DNA of 64,000 nt, taken from the NCBI GenBank assembly GCA_017627955.1, contig JAGAFU010000060.1:1-64000 (forward strand). Direction: 5' to 3'. A program made the position numbers and the translations under genes. Below, one piece after another: positions 156 to 44,759 of this stretch. Origin of the DNA: Bacteroidales bacterium. Its GTDB lineage: Bacteria > Bacteroidota > Bacteroidia > Bacteroidales > UBA932. The notes below the pieces were generated by a model. The model was not told the DNA's origin, did no database searches, and saw nothing but the letters and a program-made list of their open reading frames with translations. Positions within the stretch are counted from its first letter, which is position 1. The number at the start of each line of letters is the position of its first letter.

Positions 156-2753
156 ATGAAAAATCTCTCAATAATAAGTGTTCTTCTGGTTCTGGTTTCC
201 TGTGGAAAGGGGGACTGGAAGGATGCGACGGCTCCGGCGGCCGACAGGGCAAAGGCTCTTTTGAAGGAGATGACCCTCGAGGAAAAGGTCGGGCAGATGT
301 GCCAGTACGTGGCCCCGTGCTATGTTCCTCCAGGACAAGGCTCTCCTTACAAGAATATCGACGCCACCGATGAGAATCTCGGCAACAAGGATTTGGCCGA
401 CAAGATCCGCCGCGGGGAAGTCGGTTCCTTCCTCCACTGCATGACCACAAAAGAGGCCATCGCCCTTCAAGAACTCGCCAAAGAAAGCCGGCTTGGTATT
501 CCCCTTCTGATAGGCATCGACGCCATCCATGGAAATGCCCTGATCGAGGGCTGCACCATTTATCCGACCAGCATCAACCTCGCTTCCACCTTTGACCCGG
601 AGCTGGTTGAGAGCATAGGGGCAGAGACTGCCCTGGAGATGCGCCAGAAAGGCCTGTACTGGACTTTCGCCCCGAATCTGGATGTCGCCCGCGACGCTCG
701 CTGGGGAAGGATGGGAGAGACCTTCGGCGAGGATCCATTCCTGGTCTCGGAGATTGGGAAATATTCCATCTGGGGACTCCAGGGACGGGACAGGAATTTC
801 GACCAGGGTCATGTAATCGCCTGCGCGAAGCATCTCATCGCCGGGGGCGAGCCTTTCGGCGGTCTCAACGCCGCTCCGATGGACCTGTCCGAAAGACAAT
901 TACGGGAAATATACCTACCTCCTTTCGTGTCCGCGATCAAGGACGCGCATGTCGGGACCGTGATGGCCGCCCACAATGAGGTGAATGGTATTCCTTGTCA
1001 CGGAAATAGTTGGTTATTAAAAGATTTGCTTCGAGATGAGCTTGGTTTTGACGGCTTCGTGGTGAGCGACTGGATGGACATTGAGAGGCTCAATGCGATG
1101 CATCACTGGGCTCCTGACTCGACTGAGGCCTTTGTCCGGTCGGTCGAGGCGGGGATAGATATGCACATGCAGGGTGACAATTATTTCGAGGCTGTGATCG
1201 GTGCCGTCAAGTCGGGAAGGATTCCCATGAAACGGATCGATGAGGCTGTCGGAAAGATCCTGGAGATGAAGTTCGCCGTGGGACTTTTCGAGGCTCCGCT
1301 GCCTTCACTTGCTCCCCTTGAGAATGCCGAGGCCCATCGCCAGACCGCCCTCGATGCCGCCCGTGAAAGCATTGTCCTCCTCAAGAATAACGGCATACTG
1401 CCGCTTAGGATGCCGGAGAGGGCCAGTCTGGCAGGCTCAACCCATGCCACCCTCGGCACTGTAAGAGGGGGGACCGGAGCGAAGCGAAGCGGAGCGAGCG
1501 GTGGGGCCGAGCGAAGCGAGGAGTCCGGACTGGCAGAGCCTGTCGCCATTCAACGGTTGTTCGTTGTCGGGCCGAATGCTGACAGCCAGACGATTTTGGG
1601 AGATTGGGCCGCGCCGCAACCTGATAGCCTTGTGATAACGGTCCTGGAAGGCATCCGGAATGAGTTCCCTGGAGCCAAGATCGACACCTTATGCTTCGAC
1701 GGGATGATAGCAAACATCGATGCCAAGGGAATTGAGGCCGCAAGGCGCAAAGCCGCCTCCGCTGACATCTGCATCGTCGTCGCCGGAGAGAACTCCCAGA
1801 GATATTCCGCATTCGGCCGCACCTGCGGAGAGAACTGCGACAGGGACGACCTCGACCTTCCCGGCATGCAGCAGGAACTACTTGAGGCAGTGGCCTCCGC
1901 GGGCAAACCGACCGTTCTTGTACTTATGACGGGCAGGGCCAACAGCCTTGCTTGGGCCAAAGAGAATGTGGATGCGATCCTTAATGTCTGGGAGCCCGGG
2001 CAGATGGGCGGCCAGGCTGTCGCCGAAGTCCTTTCCGGTAAGGTCAACCCTTCCGGCAAGCTCCCTGTGACGATGCCTCGCAGCGTAGGCCAGGTACCGA
2101 CCGTCTATAATCATAAGCACTCGCAGTACTCACGCCTATTCGCCACCAACGAGACCGGCCCTCTTTGGCCCTTCGGCTTCGGCCTGTCTTACAGTCATTT
2201 TGTTTATTCGAAACCTTCCATGTCTTCCGGACAGCCGTCCGGGCCCGGCCGCGTCCATCCTCGCTCCGCTGCGGCTGAGTACGGCCTAAGCCCGGAGGCT
2301 GCTCCGGAGCGAAGTGAGGCGTCTAAGGCAGGTCTGGCAAGTCCGGACCGTGGACGCCCTCGTCACGCAAGAGGGGGGACCGCCGACGAAGTCGGTGGTG
2401 GGGCCTCGCGAAGCGAGGAGTCCGGACTGCCAGAGCCTGCCTTAGACGCTCTTGCCCATGTGAGCATCAATGTTACAAACGAGGGACCGTACGATGGGGC
2501 AGAGGTGGTGCAGTTGTATGTGAGGGACGAATATGCGTCTGTGACGAGGCCGGTGAAGGAACTGAAGGCCTTCAGGAGAGTATTCCTGAAAGTCGGAGAG
2601 AGCGCTGAAGTCACTTTTGCGATCACCCCCGAAATGCTCCAATGCTTCGGAGCCGACAATCGCTGGAGCGTCGAACCAGGAGAATTCACAATCCTGATCG
2701 GCTCATCATCAGCCGACCAGGACCTTCAAAAACTATCACTGACTATTGACTAA
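156..2753 (+). CDS. GH3 family beta-glycosidase, lipoprotein, with in-frame repeat insertions
   Basis: This is a glycoside hydrolase family 3 enzyme of the BglX type (beta-glucosidase or beta-xylosidase), likely periplasmic or surface-bound. The start at 156 gives a short lipoprotein signal (MKNLSIISVLLVLVSCGKG); an upstream ATG-like start at 105 would bury it. The GH3 N-terminal TIM barrel carries a KHL motif (CAKHLIAGGE) and the likely nucleophile Asp at about residue 305 in GFVVSDWMD. The C-terminal alpha/beta sandwich and fibronectin-like domain (NVTNEGPYDGAEVVQLYV) are complete. Two Gly/Arg/Ser/Glu-rich stretches, about residues 422-463 and 690-765, do not fit the family and are encoded by GC-rich palindromic repeats. 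They fall near domain boundaries and keep the frame. The enzyme may still be active. Exact substrate cannot be read from sequence; pectin or hemicellulose side chains are likely from context. Confidence 0.88.
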   Translation: MKNLSIISVLLVLVSCGKGDWKDATAPAADRAKALLKEMTLEEKVGQMCQYVAPCYVPPGQGSPYKNIDATDENLGNKDLADKIRRGEVGSFLHCMTTKEAIALQELAKESRLGIPLLIGIDAIHGNALIEGCTIYPTSINLASTFDPELVESIGAETALEMRQKGLYWTFAPNLDVARDARWGRMGETFGEDPFLVSEIGKYSIWGLQGRDRNFDQGHVIACAKHLIAGGEPFGGLNAAPMDLSERQLREIYLPPFVSAIKDAHVGTVMAAHNEVNGIPCHGNSWLLKDLLRDELGFDGFVVSDWMDIERLNAMHHWAPDSTEAFVRSVEAGIDMHMQGDNYFEAVIGAVKSGRIPMKRIDEAVGKILEMKFAVGLFEAPLPSLAPLENAEAHRQTALDAARESIVLLKNNGILPLRMPERASLAGSTHATLGTVRGGTGAKRSGASGGAERSEESGLAEPVAIQRLFVVGPNADSQTILGDWAAPQPDSLVITVLEGIRNEFPGAKIDTLCFDGMIANIDAKGIEAARRKAASADICIVVAGENSQRYSAFGRTCGENCDRDDLDLPGMQQELLEAVASAGKPTVLVLMTGRANSLAWAKENVDAILNVWEPGQMGGQAVAEVLSGKVNPSGKLPVTMPRSVGQVPTVYNHKHSQYSRLFATNETGPLWPFGFGLSYSHFVYSKPSMSSGQPSGPGRVHPRSAAAEYGLSPEAAPERSEASKAGLASPDRGRPRHARGGTADEVGGGASRSEESGLPEPALDALAHVSINVTNEGPYDGAEVVQLYVRDEYASVTRPVKELKAFRRVFLKVGESAEVTFAITPEMLQCFGADNRWSVEPGEFTILIGSSSADQDLQKLSLTID
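1463..1542. repeat. GC-rich palindromic module B, copy 1 (inside GH3)
   Basis: This stretch shares 14 identical bases at its left end (AAGAGGGGGGACCG) with copy 2 at 2369, and 31 of 32 bases at its right end (1511-1542 against 2408-2439) by hand alignment. The middle differs and is made of GAAGCG/GAGCG iterations. It is translated in frame within the GH3 protein as Gly-, Ala-, Arg-, Ser- and Glu-rich sequence. The combination of conserved ends, variable middle and open frame suggests a small mobile palindromic element. Confidence 0.7.
2227..2307. repeat. 81-bp palindromic module A, GH3 copy
   Basis: This 81-bp module matches the reverse complement of 4279-4359 inside the GH95 gene at 73 of 81 positions by hand alignment. 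Its ends are imperfect inverted repeats (CCGGACAGCCG and GGCTGCTCCGG). In both genes it is read in the same frame relative to the coding strand, giving [15 protein letters not shown]. The two host genes are unrelated enzymes, so the shared sequence is an insertion, not homology. Confidence 0.78.
2318..2447. repeat. GC-rich palindromic module B, copy 2 (inside GH3)
   Basis: The element directly follows module A. Its outer arms, 2321-2348 and 2420-2447, are near-perfect inverted repeats of 28 bp (left begins GTCTAAGGCAGG, right ends CCTGCCTTAGAC). An inner hairpin ACCGCCGAC-GAA-GTCGGTGGT lies between them. The ends match copy 1 at 1463-1542. The whole element is open in the GH3 frame and would form a long stem-loop in the mRNA. 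Confidence 0.72.
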
Positions 2754-2811
2754 CGGCGAATTTCGCCGATTTGCAACGTCAAGAAGCACACCTGCCAACA
2801 AACTTGGCAGG
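2754..2811. terminator. Candidate bidirectional terminator between converging GH3 and GH95 genes
   Basis: Two hairpins lie between the converging stop codons. The first is CGGCG-AATTT-CGCCG at 2754-2768. The second is CCTGCCAA-CAAAC-TTGGCAGG at 2791-2811, followed by CAGCTTTCT on the plus strand and by TGTGCTTCTT on the minus strand. The T-runs are poor, so termination strength is uncertain, but position and symmetry fit a shared terminator. Confidence 0.5.
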
Positions 2812-2818
2812 CAGCTTT

Positions 2819-5410
2819 CTATCGTGCCGTAAGAATATATTCGGCCCCCGGCTTCAGAGTCAGGGTCGTCAAGTAATACTTGCCGTCCCGGCGAGACCTG
2901 GAGGACGCGCCATTGACTTTAACGGGGACAGAAGTGCGGACGGTAAACTTCTTCGCTCCGCCAAGATCCTTCGCTCCGCTCAGGATGACAGGAGAATAGA
3001 CAAGCTTGGCGGAAGTCAGTTTGCCACCGGTCCAATCCATGTCCACGCTGACGGCTCCACGAGCCCTCAAGCCCTCGACGGAACCCTCAGCCCAAGCTGA
3101 AGGCAAAGCCGGAAGCAGGTGAATCTCACCGTTTTGACTCTGAATAAGCATCTCGCCAATACCAGCGATACTACCGAAGTTACCATCAATCTGGAACGGC
3201 GGGTGGGTGTCCCAAAGATTGGGAAGAGTAGACTTGCTGAGAAGTTCCCTGTACATCTTGTGGGCATGATCGCCGTCCAGAAGCCTGGACCAGAAGCAGA
3301 TCTTCCACGCCTTGCTCCAGCCGGTTCCGCCATCACCTCTCCTTTCGAGAGTCTTTACAGCTGCTTTGGCCAGCTCGGGTGTCTTGAGGGGCGAGATCTC
3401 ATGCCCAGGATGGAGTCCGAACAGATGGGAGACGTGCCTGTGTTCCGGCTCAGCGTCCTTCCAGTCCTTGTACCATTCAACAAGATTCCCGGCCTTGCCG
3501 ATCTGCAGGGGGTAAAGATTATCGCGATAATGCTTCCATCTCTTCCTCAAAGCAGGATCGACACCAAGAACCTCGCTCGCCTCAATCACATCGGTAAACA
3601 ACTCCCAACTGATCTCAAGATCCATCGCCGAGCCGATCGTTACCTGACCGTAATTGCCATTATCATCGATGAATGTGTTCTCGGGAGACGTCGAAGGAGA
3701 GGTGATATATTTCCCGTCCTTCTCGGCCAGCCAATCCATCAGGAACTCGGCGGAGCTCTTCAGGAGAGGATATGCTGTCCCGGCAAGATAAGCCTTGTCG
3801 CCGGTAAAGAGATAGTGCTCATAAAGATGGGTGCAGAGCCATGGTCCGGCCATCACGTAGTTGGCCCAGGAAGGGCTTCCGCTCTTGTCGCCGACAGGGT
3901 TGGCCGCGCACCAGATGTCGCTGTTGTGGTGGACTGTCCAGCCGTTCATCCCATACATGTTCCTTACGACCTCGGTTCCGGCGACGGAGCAGTTCTTGAT
4001 GAACTCGATCAGAGGCAATGCGGTCTGGCTCAACCCGAGAGGCTCGGCTGGCCAGTAATTCATCTGGACATTGATGTTCGTGTGGAGGTCACTTCCCCAA
4101 GCGGGGTGACGGTCCTTGCACCAGAGACCCTGGAGGTTGCAAGGGACCTCGCTGTCCTCCCTGGAGGATGAGATCAGGAGGTAGCGGCCAAACTGGAAGT
4201 ACAGTGTCTCAAGATAAAGATCCTCCCCTCCCGCGGCATAAGCCTCTAATCTTTGGTCGGTGGTGATCTCTGACGGAGCCGGAGCAGCCGTCGAGCTTAG
4301 GCCGTACTCAGCCGCAGCGAAGCGAGAATGGACGCGGCCGGGCTCGAGCGGCTGTCCGGCCTTATCAGAAGGTCCAAGAACCAGTTTGACTGATCCGAAA
4401 AGCTTCTGATAGTCAGCGACATGGGCATTCAGGAGCTCCTCGTACCCCTTCTTCTCGGCACCCGCTATAAACGATGCCGCCAGAGCGTTCTCATCACGGC
4501 CTTCAGTGTCAGGGCGCTTATCAAAACCATTGAAACTTGTCGCCGCGCTGACAAGGATCAGCACATCCGAGGCATCGGAGACATGGAGGCAAGGACCGGT
4601 GTAAACCTGGCCGTCGCACTTCACGACCTTGACCCTGAACTGGTAGCGCATACCCTTCTCTCCGTTAGGACCGACCTGCCACCGGGAGAACGGCTCCTCC
4701 CACTTCGTGCTCTGGTAATATCCGACCTGGCCCTTAACCACATATTCATTGGAAGAGACGCTCTCCACGGAACTGCCGTCCCACATCGTGGCCCCGTCCA
4801 GATCAAACTCAAGTTTCCCCTCCTCGGATGAAGTCAGGCGTATCACCATTACCCTGTCCGGATGGGAAACGAATATTTCCCTTGAATACTCGACTCCGTC
4901 AACCACGAACTTGGTTCTGGTCACGGCATTGTCGAGATCCAAGGTGCGCAGATAACCTTCCACAACGCTGGCCTTGTTCTCCGGAAGAGCGGCGTTTTTG
5001 CCGGAATAGTCAAAGACAAGGGCGTCATTATCAAAACTTTGGCGAATATGAAGGGAGCCCATCGGGAGATATGAGTTGACATATTTTCCCTGGAGGCTTT
5101 TGACCTTTTCCTCGGCCGCTTTCCATTCCTCTTTCTCAAGCAGGGCTCTGACCTCCGCAAGCAGCTCGGGACCTCCTGTCGAAACCGGATTGTTGTCGGG
5201 ATTGGCAGATCCTCCCCACAAAGAGCCTTCGTTAAGCCAGATAAGATCATCTGTCACACCCCCGTAAACCGTAGCGCCAAGATGGCCGTTGCCAATCGGC
5301 AGAGCCTCCTCAAACCGAGACGCGGGTTTGTCATACCTTAATACGAGCCCCTGGGCGGAGGCTGACAAGCAGGCCAGCAATCCGGCCAGAATAAAAGACA
5401 ATCTTCTCAT
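2819..5410 (-). CDS. GH95 alpha-L-fucosidase/alpha-L-galactosidase, with in-frame repeat insertions
   Basis: The 863-residue protein is a glycoside hydrolase family 95 enzyme that inverts and removes terminal L-fucose or L-galactose. It starts with a signal peptide ([19 protein letters not shown]) and is likely periplasmic. The N-terminal sandwich begins [17 protein letters not shown]. Family catalytic sites are visible: the Asn-x-Asn pair in NINVQMNYW (about residue 448), a Glu in STSPENT (about 577) and an Asp in QIDGNFG (about 740). In a pectin locus it could trim rhamnogalacturonan side chains or xyloglucan. About residues 350-377 ([16 protein letters not shown]) come from the 81-bp repeat module, and residues near 810 ([10 protein letters not shown]) from a second repeat family. 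It converges on the GH3 gene. The exact sugar specificity is not determined by sequence. Confidence 0.9.
2965..2991. repeat. 27-bp SEAKDL-type repeat, inside GH95
   Basis: The core GATCCTTCGCTCCGCTCAGG followed by ATGACAG recurs, with one or two changes, at 42170-42196 and 42347-42373 and inverted at 32374-32400. Read on the coding strand it yields [10 protein letters not shown] in the C-terminal domain of the GH95 protein. ATCCT and AGGAT form its inverted ends. Confidence 0.8.
4279..4359. repeat. 81-bp palindromic module A, GH95 copy
   Basis: On the coding (minus) strand this reads as the same module as 2227-2307 in GH3, with eight differences in 81 bases by hand count. The terminal inverted repeats CCGGACAGCCG and CGGCTGCTCCGG are better preserved here. 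It encodes [15 protein letters not shown] in the linker region after the N-terminal domain. Confidence 0.78.
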
Positions 5411-8021: not shown

Positions 8022-8059
8022 CTATTTTATTGTCATTCTGCTATTTTATTGTCATTCTG
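8022..8059. repeat. 19-bp perfect tandem duplication between kduD and kduI
   Basis: CTATTTTATTGTCATTCTG occurs twice back to back at 8022-8040 and 8041-8059. The second copy runs directly into GAGAGAAACGAAGAATC, so the whole reads as a decayed SEAKDL-type repeat (8049-8075) whose edge was duplicated. On the minus strand the repeat lies in the spacer of an operon and could affect kduI translation. Confidence 0.8.
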
Positions 8060-8075
8060 AGAGAAACGAAGAATC
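8049..8075. repeat. Degenerate SEAKDL-type repeat at the kduD stop
   Basis: TTGTCATTCTGAGAGAAACG followed by AAGAATC differs from the intergenic copy at 32374-32400 at only a few positions. It reaches the kduD stop codon, so the element may have supplied the gene's final bases or flanks it by chance. Confidence 0.55.
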
Positions 8076-8878
8076 TACTTCGGCTGTTTTCCAATATACG
8101 CTAATATTCCCCCATCCACATAAAGGATGTGCCCATTGACCGCATCCGAGGCGTGCGAGGCCAGAAATACAGCTGGACCACCGAGTTCCGACGGCTCAAG
8201 CCAGCGCCCGGCGGGAGTCTTGGCGCAAATGAAGGAGTCGAACGGATGGCGGCTTCCGTCGGGCTGCTTCTCCCGCAACGGAGCGGTCTGGGGTGTGGCT
8301 ATATAGCCTGGGCCAAGGCCATTGCACTGGATATTGTACTCTCCATATTCAGAACAGATGTTCTTGGTAAGCATCTTCAGACCTCCCTTGGCGGCCGCAT
8401 AAGCCGAGACGGTCTCTCTTCCGAGCTCGGACATCATCGAGCAGATGTTGATGATCTTCCCTTCCCTGCGCTCCATCATCTCGGGCAGGACGGCCGCGCT
8501 GACAATGTACGGACCCACCAGGTCGATGTCAATGACCTGCTGGAACTCCTCCCTTGTCATCTCGTGCATCGGAATCCTCTTGATTATACCGGCGTTGTTG
8601 ACAAGGATGTCGATCTGGCCCACTTCCTCGTGGATTTTCCGGACCATCTCGGCGACTTGCTTCTCATCAGTCACGTCGCAAAGATAACCTTTGACATTTT
8701 CGATCCCGGCCTCTTTGTAATTCTCAAGCCCCTGCTGCAGGGTTTTCTCGTTACGGTTGTTGAATATGACAGTCTTGGCTCCGGCGGCCACGAAGGCCTT
8801 CGCGATTTCGAAACCTATACCGTAGGCTCCTCCTGTTATCAAAGCATTCTTGCCCTCAAGGGAAAAAAGATTGGTCAT
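8075..8878 (-). CDS. kduD: 2-dehydro-3-deoxy-D-gluconate 5-dehydrogenase (SDR)
   Basis: KduD reduces 2,5-diketo-3-deoxygluconate to 2-keto-3-deoxygluconate (KDG) with NAD(P)H. It is a classic short-chain dehydrogenase: cofactor motif TGGAYGIG near the N-terminus, NNAG in DILVNNAGIIKR, and the catalytic Ser/Tyr-x-x-x-Lys in SAYAAAKGG. The start at 8878 (MTNLFSLEGKNALITGG) is chosen because it matches the family start; an in-frame ATG at 8923 would extend through the promoter. It is the first gene of the minus-strand operon with kduI and the DUF4861 gene, and its KDG product feeds kdgK in the rightward operon. Confidence 0.93.
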   Translation of the reverse strand: MTNLFSLEGKNALITGGAYGIGFEIAKAFVAAGAKTVIFNNRNEKTLQQGLENYKEAGIENVKGYLCDVTDEKQVAEMVRKIHEEVGQIDILVNNAGIIKRIPMHEMTREEFQQVIDIDLVGPYIVSAAVLPEMMERREGKIINICSMMSELGRETVSAYAAAKGGLKMLTKNICSEYGEYNIQCNGLGPGYIATPQTAPLREKQPDGSRHPFDSFICAKTPAGRWLEPSELGGPAVFLASHASDAVNGHILYVDGGILAYIGKQPK

Positions 8879-26164: not shown

Positions 26165-27667
26165 ATGGATTACATAAGGATAAATCCGGCGGACAACGTG
26201 GCCGTCGCCCTGGCCGACCTGAAAGCGGGGACGCTGGTGGAGGGTGTAACCCTCAAGACAGATGTCCCACAGGGGCACAAGATAACTCTCAAGCCTCTTG
26301 CCGAAGGGGAGAATGTCATTAAGTACGGCTTCCCCATCGGCCATGTGGTCAAGGCCGTTGAGGCCGGGGAATGGATTGACCATAACAGCGTCAAAACCAA
26401 CCTGGAAGGTCTGTTGGATTATTCTTACAATCCCGCCAAGGTGGAGATCGCTCCCGCGGAGGTCCACAGGACCTTCCGCGGGTTCCGCCGCGGCGACGGA
26501 AGTGTCGGGATCCGAAACCAAATCTGGGTCATTCCCACGGTCGGTTGCGTTAACGGTGTCTGCCAGGAGATTGTCAGGCGCTTCAACGACTCTTTGAATC
26601 AGCTCACCAACCAGTCCCTGAGCGGAGCCGAAGGGCCGGTCGATGCCGTCGTCGCCTTCCCCCACAACTATGGTTGCTCACAGCTTGGAGAGGACCACGA
26701 GAACACCCGCAAGATCCTGGCCGACATGGTACACCATCCCAACGCCGGAGGAGTCCTGATCGTCAGCCTCGGCTGCGAGAACAACCAGCTGGAAGCGTTC
26801 AAGGAGCTCGTGGGACCTGTCGATCCTGCCAGGGTCAAGATGTTCAAGACACAGGATGTCGAGGACGAGGTGGAATACGGACTCGGCTTGCTTAAGGAAA
26901 TATATAACGTATGTTCCAAGGACGAGAGGACGGAAGTACCTGTAAGTGAGCTGAAAGTAGGGCTTAAATGTGGTGGCTCGGACGGTTTGTCAGGCATAAC
27001 CGCCAACCCTCTGCTGGGAGTATTCTCCGACTGGATCGTCTCCCAGGGAGGAACCACGGTCCTCACTGAGGTGCCGGAAATGTTCGGAGCGGAGACCATC
27101 CTGATGAACCGCTGCCAGGACGAGAAGACTTTCGAGGAGACCGTAAGCCTCATCAACGATTTCAAGGCATATTTCATGAAAAACGGCCAGCCGGTCTATG
27201 AGAATCCCTCTCCCGGCAACAAGGCCGGAGGAATTTCCACCCTCGAGGAAAAATCTCTCGGCTGCACCCAGAAGTGCGGCAAGAGCATAGTCCGGGGCGT
27301 CCTCAGCTACGGCGAGAGACTATCCGTCAAGGGACTTAACCTTCTCAGCGCCCCAGGCAATGATCTGGTGGCCTCGACGGCGCTTGCCGCTTCGGGATGC
27401 CAGATAGTCTTGTTCACTACAGGGCGTGGAACTCCGTTCGGAACCTTTGTTCCCACTATGAAAATCTCCACAAACACAAGACTTTACGAACATAAGAAAG
27501 GCTGGATCGACTTCAACGCCGGAGTGCTCGCGCAAGGCGGGACGATGAATGAAGTCGCGGCCAAGTTCATTGAGAAAGTACTCGCCGTCGCCGGCGGTGA
27601 GAGCGTCAACAGCGAGAAAAGCGGTTTCCGCGAGATCGCGATATTCAAGTCCGGCGTGACTTTGTAA
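26165..27667 (+). CDS. uxaA: Altronate dehydratase
   Basis: UxaA dehydrates D-altronate to KDG. The 500-residue protein contains the N-terminal SAF-like domain (NPADNVAVALADLKAGTLVEG, in two parts split at ALA) and the main UxaA domain with GYGRR-like GFRRGDGSVGIRNQIWVIPT, the Cys-containing VGCVNGVCQEI, FPHNYGCSQLGEDHENT and GLKCGGSDGLSGITANP. These cysteines and histidine fit iron binding in this family. It lies 6 bp after uxaC and 36 bp before the likely uxaB start. Length is normal. Confidence 0.97.
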   Translation: MDYIRINPADNVAVALADLKAGTLVEGVTLKTDVPQGHKITLKPLAEGENVIKYGFPIGHVVKAVEAGEWIDHNSVKTNLEGLLDYSYNPAKVEIAPAEVHRTFRGFRRGDGSVGIRNQIWVIPTVGCVNGVCQEIVRRFNDSLNQLTNQSLSGAEGPVDAVVAFPHNYGCSQLGEDHENTRKILADMVHHPNAGGVLIVSLGCENNQLEAFKELVGPVDPARVKMFKTQDVEDEVEYGLGLLKEIYNVCSKDERTEVPVSELKVGLKCGGSDGLSGITANPLLGVFSDWIVSQGGTTVLTEVPEMFGAETILMNRCQDEKTFEETVSLINDFKAYFMKNGQPVYENPSPGNKAGGISTLEEKSLGCTQKCGKSIVRGVLSYGERLSVKGLNLLSAPGNDLVASTALAASGCQIVLFTTGRGTPFGTFVPTMKISTNTRLYEHKKGWIDFNAGVLAQGGTMNEVAAKFIEKVLAVAGGESVNSEKSGFREIAIFKSGVTL

Positions 27668-32373: not shown

Positions 32374-32400
32374 TTGTCATCCTGAGCGAAGCGAAGGATC
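32374..32400. repeat. Intergenic SEAKDL-type repeat
   Basis: TTGTCATCCTGAGCGAAGCG followed by AAGGATC is the inverse of the copies inside GH95 and GH106, with one to three base differences. It lies between the exuT stop and the operon terminator, in the transcribed trailer. Confidence 0.8.
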
Positions 32401-32440
32401 TGCGCCTGTTACAGAAAGCTTAATAATCAACTATTTAAAC

Positions 32441-41891: not shown

Positions 41892-44759
41892 TTATTGTTT
41901 GTAAAATTTCACTGGTCCGATCAATCCCGCGGACACATAGGGCTGGTTGCGCCTCAAAACGAAACGCTGGGCAGCCTTGTTGTCCTTGAGAGTTTGTATG
42001 TAATTGCCCATCAGGGTAGTTACTTTAACTTCAATGGTGTTTTCCCCCGCTTTCACATAGGGAGAAACGTCGTATATTCTCTCCCCGAACCACTTCATTC
42101 CGGCATCACGGCCGTTGATCTTGAGCTCACAGATGTCGGCGACCTTCCCAAGGTCAAGATACTTTGGAAGATCCTTCGCTTCGCTCAGGATGACAGTGGT
42201 CTTGTACACTATCGTGCCCATGAAGTTCTTGAAGGTCGTGTCGGCCATGTCCTTGAAGTCCTGAAGGGTGTCAAGGGTCGCTGTCCAGGTCGAGTCGAGC
42301 TGGGGCTGATTGAGGGTCAGGGACCAGGGGCCCTTCGCTTCGCGGAGATCCTTCGCTTCGCTCAGGATGACAGGGTTGGTGAGCGGAGCCGAACCACGGC
42401 CATCCTTATTGAAGACAATAAGATAAGTCTCGGACGGGCCGAAACGGAAACTGGCTTTGCCCGACTTGTCAAGCTTTAGCGGGTACCGACTCCCGGCAGC
42501 GGGATCATAAATCCAGGCATGCTTCCCGGAAGTGATTGATTTCGGGAATATTATGTCAGTCTGGCGGGCCTCGCTCATGTGGGCGTTCATGATCAGGAAT
42601 ATGTCAGACTTGTCATCGGTGACATAACGGTCCTGAAGCAGGAAGCGGTCCGGATTGGTGATGGTGATCGAATGGGGCAAGGAATATTTCTTCATCACGT
42701 CCTCATACCATTCGAGATATTTCCCGTCCTCGGGCTTCTCAAGCAAAATGAAGTTGTCTTTGAACGACTCAAGGCGCTGGACCCTTTCGGCGATCTCTTT
42801 GTCCCGGGACTCATAGTCCTTGAGTCCCAATGACTTCTCCGGATATTTCCCCACACAGAAGACCCTTCCGCCCTGACGGACGAATTCCTCGAGCTTGGCG
42901 AGCGTCTCCGGAGTCGTGCTGGTGACCTCGACGAGGAACAAGACTCCATATTCCTTTGGCCCGTAACAGAGTTTTCCGTTCCTGACCGTCGCGTCATTTA
43001 GGATTATCTCGCTCACGTAGTCGGCTCCGCCGCCGGTTTTATGGATCGCCTCCCAGATGAGAGAGGTATATGGCACATTCAGCTTGACGGGGAACGGCTC
43101 CGTCTGGACTCCCATCGTGGACCACATGTCGTAGTTGGCGGGAAGGATGGCGATGTCCGTGTACATGTCGGCGTTCTGGAGCTGGCTGGCTATGCGGGCC
43201 CTATAGTCATTAAGGTTCTTGACATAAGGCCACCAGGTGTTCCTCTCATTGTGGAACGTCCCGTACTGTATCCAGCCCGGAAACTCGGCCTCAAGAGGGG
43301 AATAATTGAATCCATGCCATACAGAATGAGTTACGCCGGAGATGGCGCTCATGTCAGAGCCGACTTTAAGGAACTCGAGCGAAGTCGTGAAGACTTTATA
43401 GGTGTTGGTCATCTCTTCGGCGCTGACGATCCTCTTTCCGGAAAGGTGCGCCGCTGAAGAGACGTATTTGTTGATCATGGTGTAACCTCGGCCGCGGCGG
43501 TAATCCTCGTCTCCCATCTCCTCTCCGATCTTGTGGCGGAGCCAGTTGGTGGTCCAAGACTCTCCCTCGGGGAAATCGACCATAAAGGAACTCTCAAGCG
43601 GGAAGAACCCCCTTCCGTAGGCCTGGGCGCGGAGTTTCAGCCCCTTGTCTTTGGCCCACTGGCCCATGGTGCCGTAAAAGCGCTCGTGAAGGAGTTCGGC
43701 TTTTGTCAGCTCGAAATCGAAGCGTACGCGATCCACTTCTTCCTGGAACTTGGGACTCTTCTTGGACCCGTATTCAAAACTCTTGACATCCCCGAGCCTT
43801 CCAACCTCGAACATCGTGAAAGGCAGCCATGGAATCACATCATAACCTCTCCTTCTCTTGAATTCCTCGGCGAAGTCTGCCGTCCAGTTGTTGCCCTCCA
43901 GCTCCATGCTGTCAATGAACATGGCCCTGACTCGACCTGAAAGAGGGCCTATTCTCTTTTCAATCGCATCGGTCATGTGGTCGAGATAATGCCTCACCGC
44001 AGCGGCGTCCATGTGGTTTAGGATCGATCCCGCTGCTCCAGGGGCGCCATTGATCACACTGGCGAACGAGTCGAACTTCACCATCGCGTAAAGCTGCCAT
44101 TTCCCCTCGGGAACATCGACGCTCAATATTCCGTCCTTAACCTTTCCGGACAGGTCGATCGCCTCTTCAAGACTTCCGATAGGATCCGGAGCGAGGCAAA
44201 TTGAGACCAGTTCCGGCGAACGGCGGGGATTGACGATGGTGACTCCGGGATCCAACTCTTTGAAAAGGTGGAACATCGACATCTCCAGAGTCTCACCTGA
44301 AGGAACTTCTTTGGCATAGGTCAAAAGCACTTCCGCCCTCTCGTCCCTGGGAAGGCTCTCGGCACCGAAAGGCCACCCGGATCCGATGATCAAGTCGCAG
44401 GTCATCCCGATACGATCCGCCTCGTCGAAAACGACCTTCAGCATGTCGATCCACTCGTCGCTGAGCCACTTCAGAGGCTTGGTGTCCAGGGTGTCAGCTC
44501 CATTGGGGAAGGAAATCGGATTGATTTCCACTCCACCTATCCCGGCTTCCTTCATGATATGAAGCTCCCTGACGAGCTCTTCAGCATTCACCCGGTCTCC
44601 GTTCCACCACCACCGCACAAACGGACGGTACCGGGTGTCCGGATTCTGGAATTGGGAATATAACTGTTTGGATGTCAGTTTATTCTGAGCTTGAACGGAA
44701 AACCCGGAAAACAATATGGCAAAGGCTGCCGATAGTGCGATAAACCTTATTGGTCTCAT
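41892..44759 (-). CDS. GH106 alpha-L-rhamnosidase with two in-frame SEAKDL-type inserts
   Basis: The 955-residue enzyme belongs to the GH106 rhamnosidases: YRPFVRWWWNGDRVNAEEL, EAGIGGVEINPISFPNG and DLIIGSGWPFGAESLPRDE are family-like blocks of the barrel, and MFIDSMELEGNNWT holds acidic residues of the site. The start at 44759 gives a proper signal peptide (MRPIRFIALSAAFAILFSGF); an earlier in-frame ATG at 44810 would overlap the upstream gene. Two repeat elements in the C-terminal sandwich region insert PVILSEAKDLREAKGP and TVILSEAKDLPKY without breaking the frame. It heads the leftward enzyme set and lies 5 bp after the flippase-type gene. Confidence 0.87.
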   Translation of the reverse strand: MRPIRFIALSAAFAILFSGFSVQAQNKLTSKQLYSQFQNPDTRYRPFVRWWWNGDRVNAEELVRELHIMKEAGIGGVEINPISFPNGADTLDTKPLKWLSDEWIDMLKVVFDEADRIGMTCDLIIGSGWPFGAESLPRDERAEVLLTYAKEVPSGETLEMSMFHLFKELDPGVTIVNPRRSPELVSICLAPDPIGSLEEAIDLSGKVKDGILSVDVPEGKWQLYAMVKFDSFASVINGAPGAAGSILNHMDAAAVRHYLDHMTDAIEKRIGPLSGRVRAMFIDSMELEGNNWTADFAEEFKRRRGYDVIPWLPFTMFEVGRLGDVKSFEYGSKKSPKFQEEVDRVRFDFELTKAELLHERFYGTMGQWAKDKGLKLRAQAYGRGFFPLESSFMVDFPEGESWTTNWLRHKIGEEMGDEDYRRGRGYTMINKYVSSAAHLSGKRIVSAEEMTNTYKVFTTSLEFLKVGSDMSAISGVTHSVWHGFNYSPLEAEFPGWIQYGTFHNERNTWWPYVKNLNDYRARIASQLQNADMYTDIAILPANYDMWSTMGVQTEPFPVKLNVPYTSLIWEAIHKTGGGADYVSEIILNDATVRNGKLCYGPKEYGVLFLVEVTSTTPETLAKLEEFVRQGGRVFCVGKYPEKSLGLKDYESRDKEIAERVQRLESFKDNFILLEKPEDGKYLEWYEDVMKKYSLPHSITITNPDRFLLQDRYVTDDKSDIFLIMNAHMSEARQTDIIFPKSITSGKHAWIYDPAAGSRYPLKLDKSGKASFRFGPSETYLIVFNKDGRGSAPLTNPVILSEAKDLREAKGPWSLTLNQPQLDSTWTATLDTLQDFKDMADTTFKNFMGTIVYKTTVILSEAKDLPKYLDLGKVADICELKINGRDAGMKWFGERIYDVSPYVKAGENTIEVKVTTLMGNYIQTLKDNKAAQRFVLRRNQPYVSAGLIGPVKFYKQ
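42170..42196. repeat. SEAKDL-type repeat 1 inside GH106
   Basis: GATCCTTCGCTTCGCTCAGG followed by ATGACAG is identical to the copy at 42347-42373 and differs from the GH95 copy by one base. It reads as TVILSEAKDL on the coding strand. Confidence 0.85.
42347..42373. repeat. SEAKDL-type repeat 2 inside GH106
   Basis: The 27-bp core matches copy 1 exactly. It is preceded at 42333-42344 by a partial extra unit CTTCGCTTCGCG, so the protein reads SEAKDLREAKGP, an internal echo of the same peptide. Confidence 0.85.

Follow-up and report, generated by a model that had tools for sequence, protein, structure and literature searches.

A putatively mobile palindromic hairpin read in frame within unrelated genes of gut Bacteroidales

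The first 64,000 nucleotides of contig JAGAFU010000060.1, from a Bacteroidales bacterium of the UBA932 lineage (assembly GCA_017627955.1) and referred to below as the window, hold two copies of a palindromic module of about 81 bp, here called element A, which are read in frame within two unrelated enzyme genes. Element A is probably, at roughly three chances in four, a non-autonomous and mobile hairpin that would have spread through one group of gut Bacteroidales. Near-identical copies in unrelated genes point to its movement, and its lengths and its codon phase give an idea of how it may have been accommodated in proteins.

Copies in the window, the genome and its relatives

Element A copy 1 (2227..2307, plus strand) lies in a GH3 gene (156..2753, plus strand, with the first ATG of the open reading frame (ORF) chosen by us as the start) whose product has Glyco_hydro_3, Glyco_hydro_3_C and Fn3-like domains, and it sits between the last two of these. 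Copy 2 (4279..4359, minus strand) lies in a GH95 gene (2819..5410, minus strand; Glyco_hyd_65N_2, Glyco_hydro_95_cat and Glyco_hydro_95_C), in the product of which the insert takes up approximately residues 349-377. A first-pass annotation, made from the sequence alone, had matched the two modules by hand at 73 of 81 positions and described them as sharing frame, orientation and terminal inverted repeats in unrelated hosts, all of which has held. A repeat search of the window paired 2227-2307 with 4279-4359 as 90% complementary arms over 81 nt, in agreement with the hand alignment, and Pfam places the hosts in unrelated families, GH3 and GH95. Reading of both ORFs confirms that the copies have the identical codon phase and are both sense relative to their own gene, being inverted relative to each other because GH95 lies on the minus strand. 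The inverted-repeat ends are borne out by folding, with energies between -44 and -52 kcal/mol for both strands of both copies; relative to dinucleotide-shuffled sequence, z is -3.5 to -4.6. A 34-nt piece of the module, allowing up to three mismatches, occurs twice in the window against 0.00 times expected from 100 shuffles.

Further genomic copies, whose absence would have told against a mobile element, were readily found. The 81-mer returned 19 rows at E≤10 from its own 2.58 Mb genome, 14 of them at E≤1.5e-5 with both window copies included, the three best having E values of 1.2e-36 (self), 6e-34 (contig C31) and 8e-26 (the GH95 copy). ORFs were read for the 16 best of these 19 rows, and all 16 sit in open ORFs of at least 272 aa (rows 14 and 15 being halves of one copy). 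According to domain models, the hosts include DNA primase DnaG, a GalB-like GH2, a GH31, MetRS, a ComEA-type protein, TldD, a topoisomerase IV/gyrase A-type protein, a transglutaminase-like protein and a LytTR regulator; in one further host (L016) no domain was detected in NCBIfam. One protein, which combines citrate-lyase-ligase and CitG domains, holds three A elements (L006-L008; G000 contig C14, ~19.2-21.5 kb). The copies in GH3 and DnaG agree at 98%, and copies 98-99% alike recur across different genes and genomes.

Counting this genome, element A has matches at E≤1e-5 in at least 25 of the 400 genomes searched in the genus; more may carry it, as no more than two candidates per genome were scored. 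A family-level draw gave matches in 13 of 398 genomes, all in one genus out of 25, and a full search of 24 relatives, picked for having matched, found 3-34 matches per genome. Among the 80 listed of at least 116 stretches with an exact 19-nt piece of the core, the named records are Bacteroidales or Bacteroidia metagenome-assembled genomes, except for three that look like chance matches, and the sources, where the titles of the listed records tell, are rumen, omasum or reindeer. Carriage by phages or plasmids was considered and set aside: one 19-nt A pattern and one pattern of a second hairpin family, B, had no exact match in viral contigs, and the 81-mer had no match among phages or plasmids.

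Codon phase, arms and orthologous sites

A profile search of the collected loci yielded 126 unique full-length copies once partial hits and duplicates had been dropped. Their lengths are 81 (92 copies), 105 (19), 90 (11), 102 (3) and 80 nt (1), i.e. a multiple of three in 125 of the 126. By a codon-usage test with thresholds of our own, 109 copies are embedded in frame in coding-like ORFs, 67 of them in sense phase 1, 38 in antisense phase 1 and four in phase 0; among antisense full copies, phase 1 was used 38 times and phase 0, which is also open, once. Phase 1 is still the best frame in 16 of the 17 copies that fell below the thresholds, some of which scored poorly. A strict phase rule was nevertheless rejected, because full copies are nearly all in phase 1 but a wider, core-based set, in which 196 of 227 copies are embedded and 160 of these are in phase 1, also uses antisense phase 0 (23), sense phase 0 (9) and antisense phase 2 (4). 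The count for antisense phase 1 in this set is 61, against the 23 for antisense phase 0. Among the 227 core copies, sense phase 1 is open in 210 and the other two sense phases in 73 and 7; antisense phases 1, 0 and 2 are open in 198, 191 and 67. That the same phase is offered on both strands is a matter of geometry, given a palindromic sequence with a length divisible by three.

The element is used in both directions. When the 126 copies were grouped into 27 site clusters (those of GH95 and DnaG merging through one chimaeric genome), both orientations were present in 10 of the 16 clusters holding more than one copy, and both are seen in the alignments of GH95, DnaG, MetRS, GH2 and the CitC-CitG type. 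At the GH3 site all full copies are sense, and one antisense-like remnant occurs in G033.

Element A consists of a conserved core of ~41 nt between two complementary arms. In 85 distinct 81-nt copies the stem covaries, with 164 compensatory cells; pair 7-74, for instance, is AT in 41 copies, GC in 26, CG in 8 and TA in 4, and pair 16-66 is GC in 38 and AT in 35. Of 1445 outer-stem cells, 121 are unpaired, whereas shuffling the right arms gave a mean of 261 and never fewer than 232. In the 227-copy set, arms match their own partner at a score of 13.8 versus 8.2 for permuted partners (41 sd), and the own right arm beats at least 95% of the other right arms in 156 of 227 copies, figures that do not count events since related copies share arms. 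Arms that are locus-specific yet mutually matched find no explanation in ordinary transposition, which suggests a testable copying mechanism. In the core copies at L152, L178 and L242, one of them close to a masked stretch, the core is 65 nt long and the arms are similar and rich in GC.

Across the three codon positions, entropy within the core is 0.20, 0.26 and 0.28 for sense copies and 0.18, 0.09 and 0.22 for antisense copies, without a strong excess at third positions. Since variation is not concentrated there, it seems to be the DNA rather than the peptide that is conserved.

Orthologous sites provide a view of what follows insertion. The GH95 insert is common to many orthologues within the genus at the same site, which points to inheritance. 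Linkers of orthologous proteins may be empty of insert, or hold the element in either orientation, remnants of it or other short repeats, and this turnover is seen at the GH95, GH3, DnaG, MetRS, GH2 and CitC-CitG type sites. For MetRS, identity among the eight best relatives runs at 90-95%, yet nine different linkers are seen in these eight and the protein of this genome. When filled and less-filled sites were compared, 19 of 21 printed comparisons, some of which share one gene, differed by a multiple of three; the exceptions are L210 (68) and L223 (137, which looks intergenic). The only preference at the flanks is a G before and a C after the element (84% and 83% of 116 copies), and no clean empty site was found from which to read a target duplication.

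Alignment with proteins of known structure places the insert in the host. The solved GH95 relative 2RDY aligns with query residues 22-348 over chain residues 3-306 and with query residues 378-805 over 308-744, so that about 29 query residues replace one residue of 2RDY; this distant homologue is without the inserted residues, whose presence in distant relatives would have spoken against a mobile element. A second GH95 alignment, to 4UFC, is less tidy than that of 2RDY, with its two parts overlapping at the break, and in the GH3 relative 7ZB3 a stretch of 13 residues stands against 80 in the query, which also include a B-like element. An AlphaFold model of GH95 built from six sequences was not used (mean pLDDT, the predicted local distance difference test, 39.6). 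In 12 proteins of the genome, 12 of 14 A copies lie outside domain models where 5.0 would be expected (simulated P 6e-5), the two inside being the GH95 copy and the third copy of the CitC-CitG type.

Proposed history, competing explanations and further repeat families

In the history that we favour, a putative trans-acting mobiliser would move the non-autonomous hairpin, which would enter genes and spacers in either orientation. With one codon phase open on both strands and a length that is a multiple of three, the outcome in a gene would be a readable protein with 27 extra residues, a prediction from the DNA. Insertions in closed phases or in folded domains would presumably be lost by selection, and survivors would mostly lie in linkers, to be inherited and to decay via in-frame deletion and nested insertion. 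The match between the arms may persist because movement requires the hairpin, or because one arm serves to repair the other. The insert would be translated and neutral for its host. As to the mobiliser, the genome has six Y1_Tnp genes (L060-L065), similar to REP-associated tyrosine transposases (RAYT; REP, repetitive extragenic palindrome), four of them over the Pfam cut-off. Weak half matches to element A were found in two of these loci and repeats of two other families, C or F, near four, and the idea that RAYT genes are neighbours of element A was not supported, though they may act on it in trans.

Several observations weigh against this history. Movement is deduced from dispersed near-identical copies rather than observed, and no recent insertion could be paired with a truly clean, empty site, many less-filled orthologues keeping remnants. 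The loci of the six Y1_Tnp genes, 2.0-3.2 kb long, contain no full A core. The copies are not independent, many being orthologous, and the 126 collapse to 27 clusters; 31 of the 227 core copies are not convincingly coding. Covariation was scored in the frame of the fold of copy 1, and 51 of the 85 copies leave pair 12-70 open. The excess of copies between domains may be biased upward by the insert itself, which may shorten domain models, and in metagenome-assembled genomes such as these, A-type repeats can mislead assembly, as probably happened in G398 (see below).

The strongest competitor, which we regard as a serious possibility falling short of even odds, is that insertion is blind and the hairpin largely a fossil, which when still mobile hit all parts of the genome, its copies being recognisable mainly in genes since deletions there have to keep the frame, with no adaptation to genes at all. 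It fits with the remnants and apparent scars of deletion that stay in frame at many sites, with the 19 of 21 comparisons differing by multiples of three, and with codon phases that largely track the open ones. However, the copies 98-99% alike in different genes and genomes imply that spread is not only ancient, the proportion of full copies found in genes may be high for a blind process, and antisense phase 1 is used more often than phase 0, which is open too, in the full copies and in the wider set. The proposal of the first-pass annotation that a mobile element has adapted to enter genes stands in part: mobility can be inferred from the 98% likeness of copies in the unrelated GH3 and DnaG genes, and adaptation is here indistinguishable from the survival of readable insertions.

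A further proposal, which we consider unlikely, is that a conserved core travels and that the arms on either side owe their match to one strand serving as template for the other, at their first formation or later (hairpin-templated repair or snap-back synthesis). Several families of this kind would together keep rewriting domain linkers across the clade, including those of replication and translation enzymes, with no dedicated transposase. Family B behaves like element A. Present in the window, at L049-L059 and at other loci, it has 21 matches in the genome at E≤0.001 and also combines a conserved core with matched arms (own 15.2 versus permuted 6.9 in 52 copies, of which 42 are embedded). For 19 B copies whose ends are defined, the first 10 outer bases form 8.0 pairs; mismatched partners form 4.9, and 1000 permutations never exceeded 6.1. 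Of these copies, 20 pairs whose cores are at least 95% alike were compared: 18 are identical at 4-7 of the 10 outer positions and two at 9-10. Near-identical cores with divergent outer bases indicate that arms differ between loci, though they are not wholly unrelated. Arm effects are weaker in families C and E (the E pattern being loose, with chance matches included) and absent in family F.

An IspE-like site with a B element, named by us from the sequence, is filled in L261, retains the left arm only in L318/L238 (identical there, and probably one genome) and in L317, the right arm only in L457, and neither arm in L156 and L273. The one-arm states are best read as in-frame deletion scars of opposite kinds, the arms having arrived with the insert. 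Insertion into the loops of existing hairpins such as terminators had first been suggested by B copies with terminator-like arms; some intergenic B copies resemble terminators with the core in the loop. A simple test for a T or A run was positive in 5 of 83 copies, and no hairpin with the same arms but lacking a core turned up, though this was a weak search that covered inner arm parts only and missed the one known pair. Matched flanks without a core were seen at 2 of 462 CCAG-N-CTGG sites, six control motifs giving 0 or 1 each, and together with the one-arm relatives this leaves insertion into pre-existing hairpins unsupported at the IspE-like site, the one with informative outgroups. That arms are inverted copies of the target, an idea raised by L069/L068 and L261/L238, was withdrawn for the IspE-like site and may hold at the other.

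Besides element A, the two host genes in the window hold members of these families, which the first-pass annotation had not mentioned alongside the module. The GH3 gene contains, in frame, an element B (1423..1534, plus strand), the outer arms of which are unpaired in this copy, and a B-like hairpin (2319..2449, plus strand, arms 2319-2348 and 2420-2449) that adjoins element A copy 1; the GH95 gene contains a small F repeat (2964..2988, minus strand), read in frame as VILSGAKDL. Elsewhere in the window, two F repeats (42169-42193 and 42346-42370, minus strand, VILSEAKDL) lie in frame in one long ORF, a C repeat (26617-26634, SLSGAEG) is in frame in a plus-strand ORF, and two F repeats (8052-8076 and 32377-32401) lie outside convincing ORFs. 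In another locus, a transporter-like ORF (L063:2614-3162, minus strand) reads C repeats in a row in frame (SLSGVEGP twice).

Three other explanations fare worse than those above. That the module is a functional peptide motif (a linker, tag or binding site) exchanged between genes is highly improbable: it is kept at orthologous sites in many species, as such a motif would be, but sense and antisense copies at one site encode quite different peptides, variation is not focused on third codon positions and relatives carry other repeats at the same site. Somewhat less credible still is that the insert is absent from the protein, removed from RNA by splicing or skipped by the ribosome, for which bypassed segments of yeast mitochondria would be a parallel. 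The strong hairpins and hosts expected to be essential, DnaG and MetRS, would suit removal, yet removal would free the frame, which is at odds with the near-universal multiples of three and with a host phase open through 109 copies, and no Rfam family came near threshold in window positions 1300-4500. Finally, metagenome assembly across repeats almost certainly did not create the inserts: contigs of G398 (L348, L341) do join GH95 and DnaG halves via the element, probably as an assembly chimaera at the repeat, but genomes assembled independently, among them records of two projects (RGIG2644 at L166; RUG13106, RUG579 and RUG645 at L181, L200 and L206), carry the GH95 insert at one and the same position, with the frame open to either side.

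Known coding palindromes and what element A adds

Coding palindromic elements are known from Rickettsia and from some other genomes, and whether they represent tolerated junk or new protein segments is an old question. The likeness to the Rickettsia elements put forward in the first-pass annotation is supported, in that element A forms palindromes in frame in several unrelated protein-coding genes, including housekeeping genes; it works like these elements and like intragenic REPs and is classed as neither. Rickettsia palindromic elements (RPE), including RPE-1, RPE-4 and RPE-6, are described as lying in frame in unrelated genes, housekeeping ones too, and R. conorii proteins with RPE-1 as expressed in vivo (PMC3733652). 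The host of element A belongs to a different phylum, and the likeness is one of behaviour. Element A combines a conserved core with arms that match each other but vary by locus, occurs in both orientations at a site and shares its linkers with several repeat families, features that RPEs may also have.

REPs are given in the same paper as 20-40 bp long, mostly intergenic and with GTAG or CGTC at one end, intragenic ones being known from Opitutus terrae (PMC3733652). Element A shares with them multi-copy hairpins that sometimes lie in genes, in a genome with RAYT-like Y1_Tnp genes, but it is 81 bp long and mostly in genes, and has no full core beside the Y1_Tnp genes. The 126 full copies start with CCGG in 112 cases and end with it in 114, and none has GTAG or CGTC at either end; CGTC occurs somewhere inside 98 and GTAG in none. 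Palindromic amphipathic repeat coding elements (PARCEL) are also palindromic DNA read as protein, but they consist of a 25-residue motif repeated in tandem, in ORFs to which no function is assigned (PMC2996958), in contrast to dispersed single inserts in known enzymes. With miniature inverted-repeat transposable elements (MITEs) element A has in common that it is short, non-autonomous, dispersed and bounded by terminal inverted repeats; no target duplication or parent transposon was seen, no genome-wide search for such a parent having been made. Unlike introns and bypassed segments, its frame is constrained. In literature covered at the level of titles and the beginnings of abstracts, with subscription papers mostly outside, no description of an A-type element in Bacteroidales was found. 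The passages available of a paper on Porphyromonas gingivalis repeats deal with MITEs and repeated domains and hold no match for 'in frame' or 'intragenic' (PMC5771137).

For annotation, these results are a warning that linker insertions and some contig joins in Bacteroidales genomes of this clade are driven by repeats. For the biology of such elements, a clade of many assembled species displays the process at orthologous sites, some in essential-looking host genes, through insert states, both orientations, nested inserts and apparent in-frame deletion scars. Because the process is visible in this way, its rates, targets, phase use and effects on proteins are measurable.

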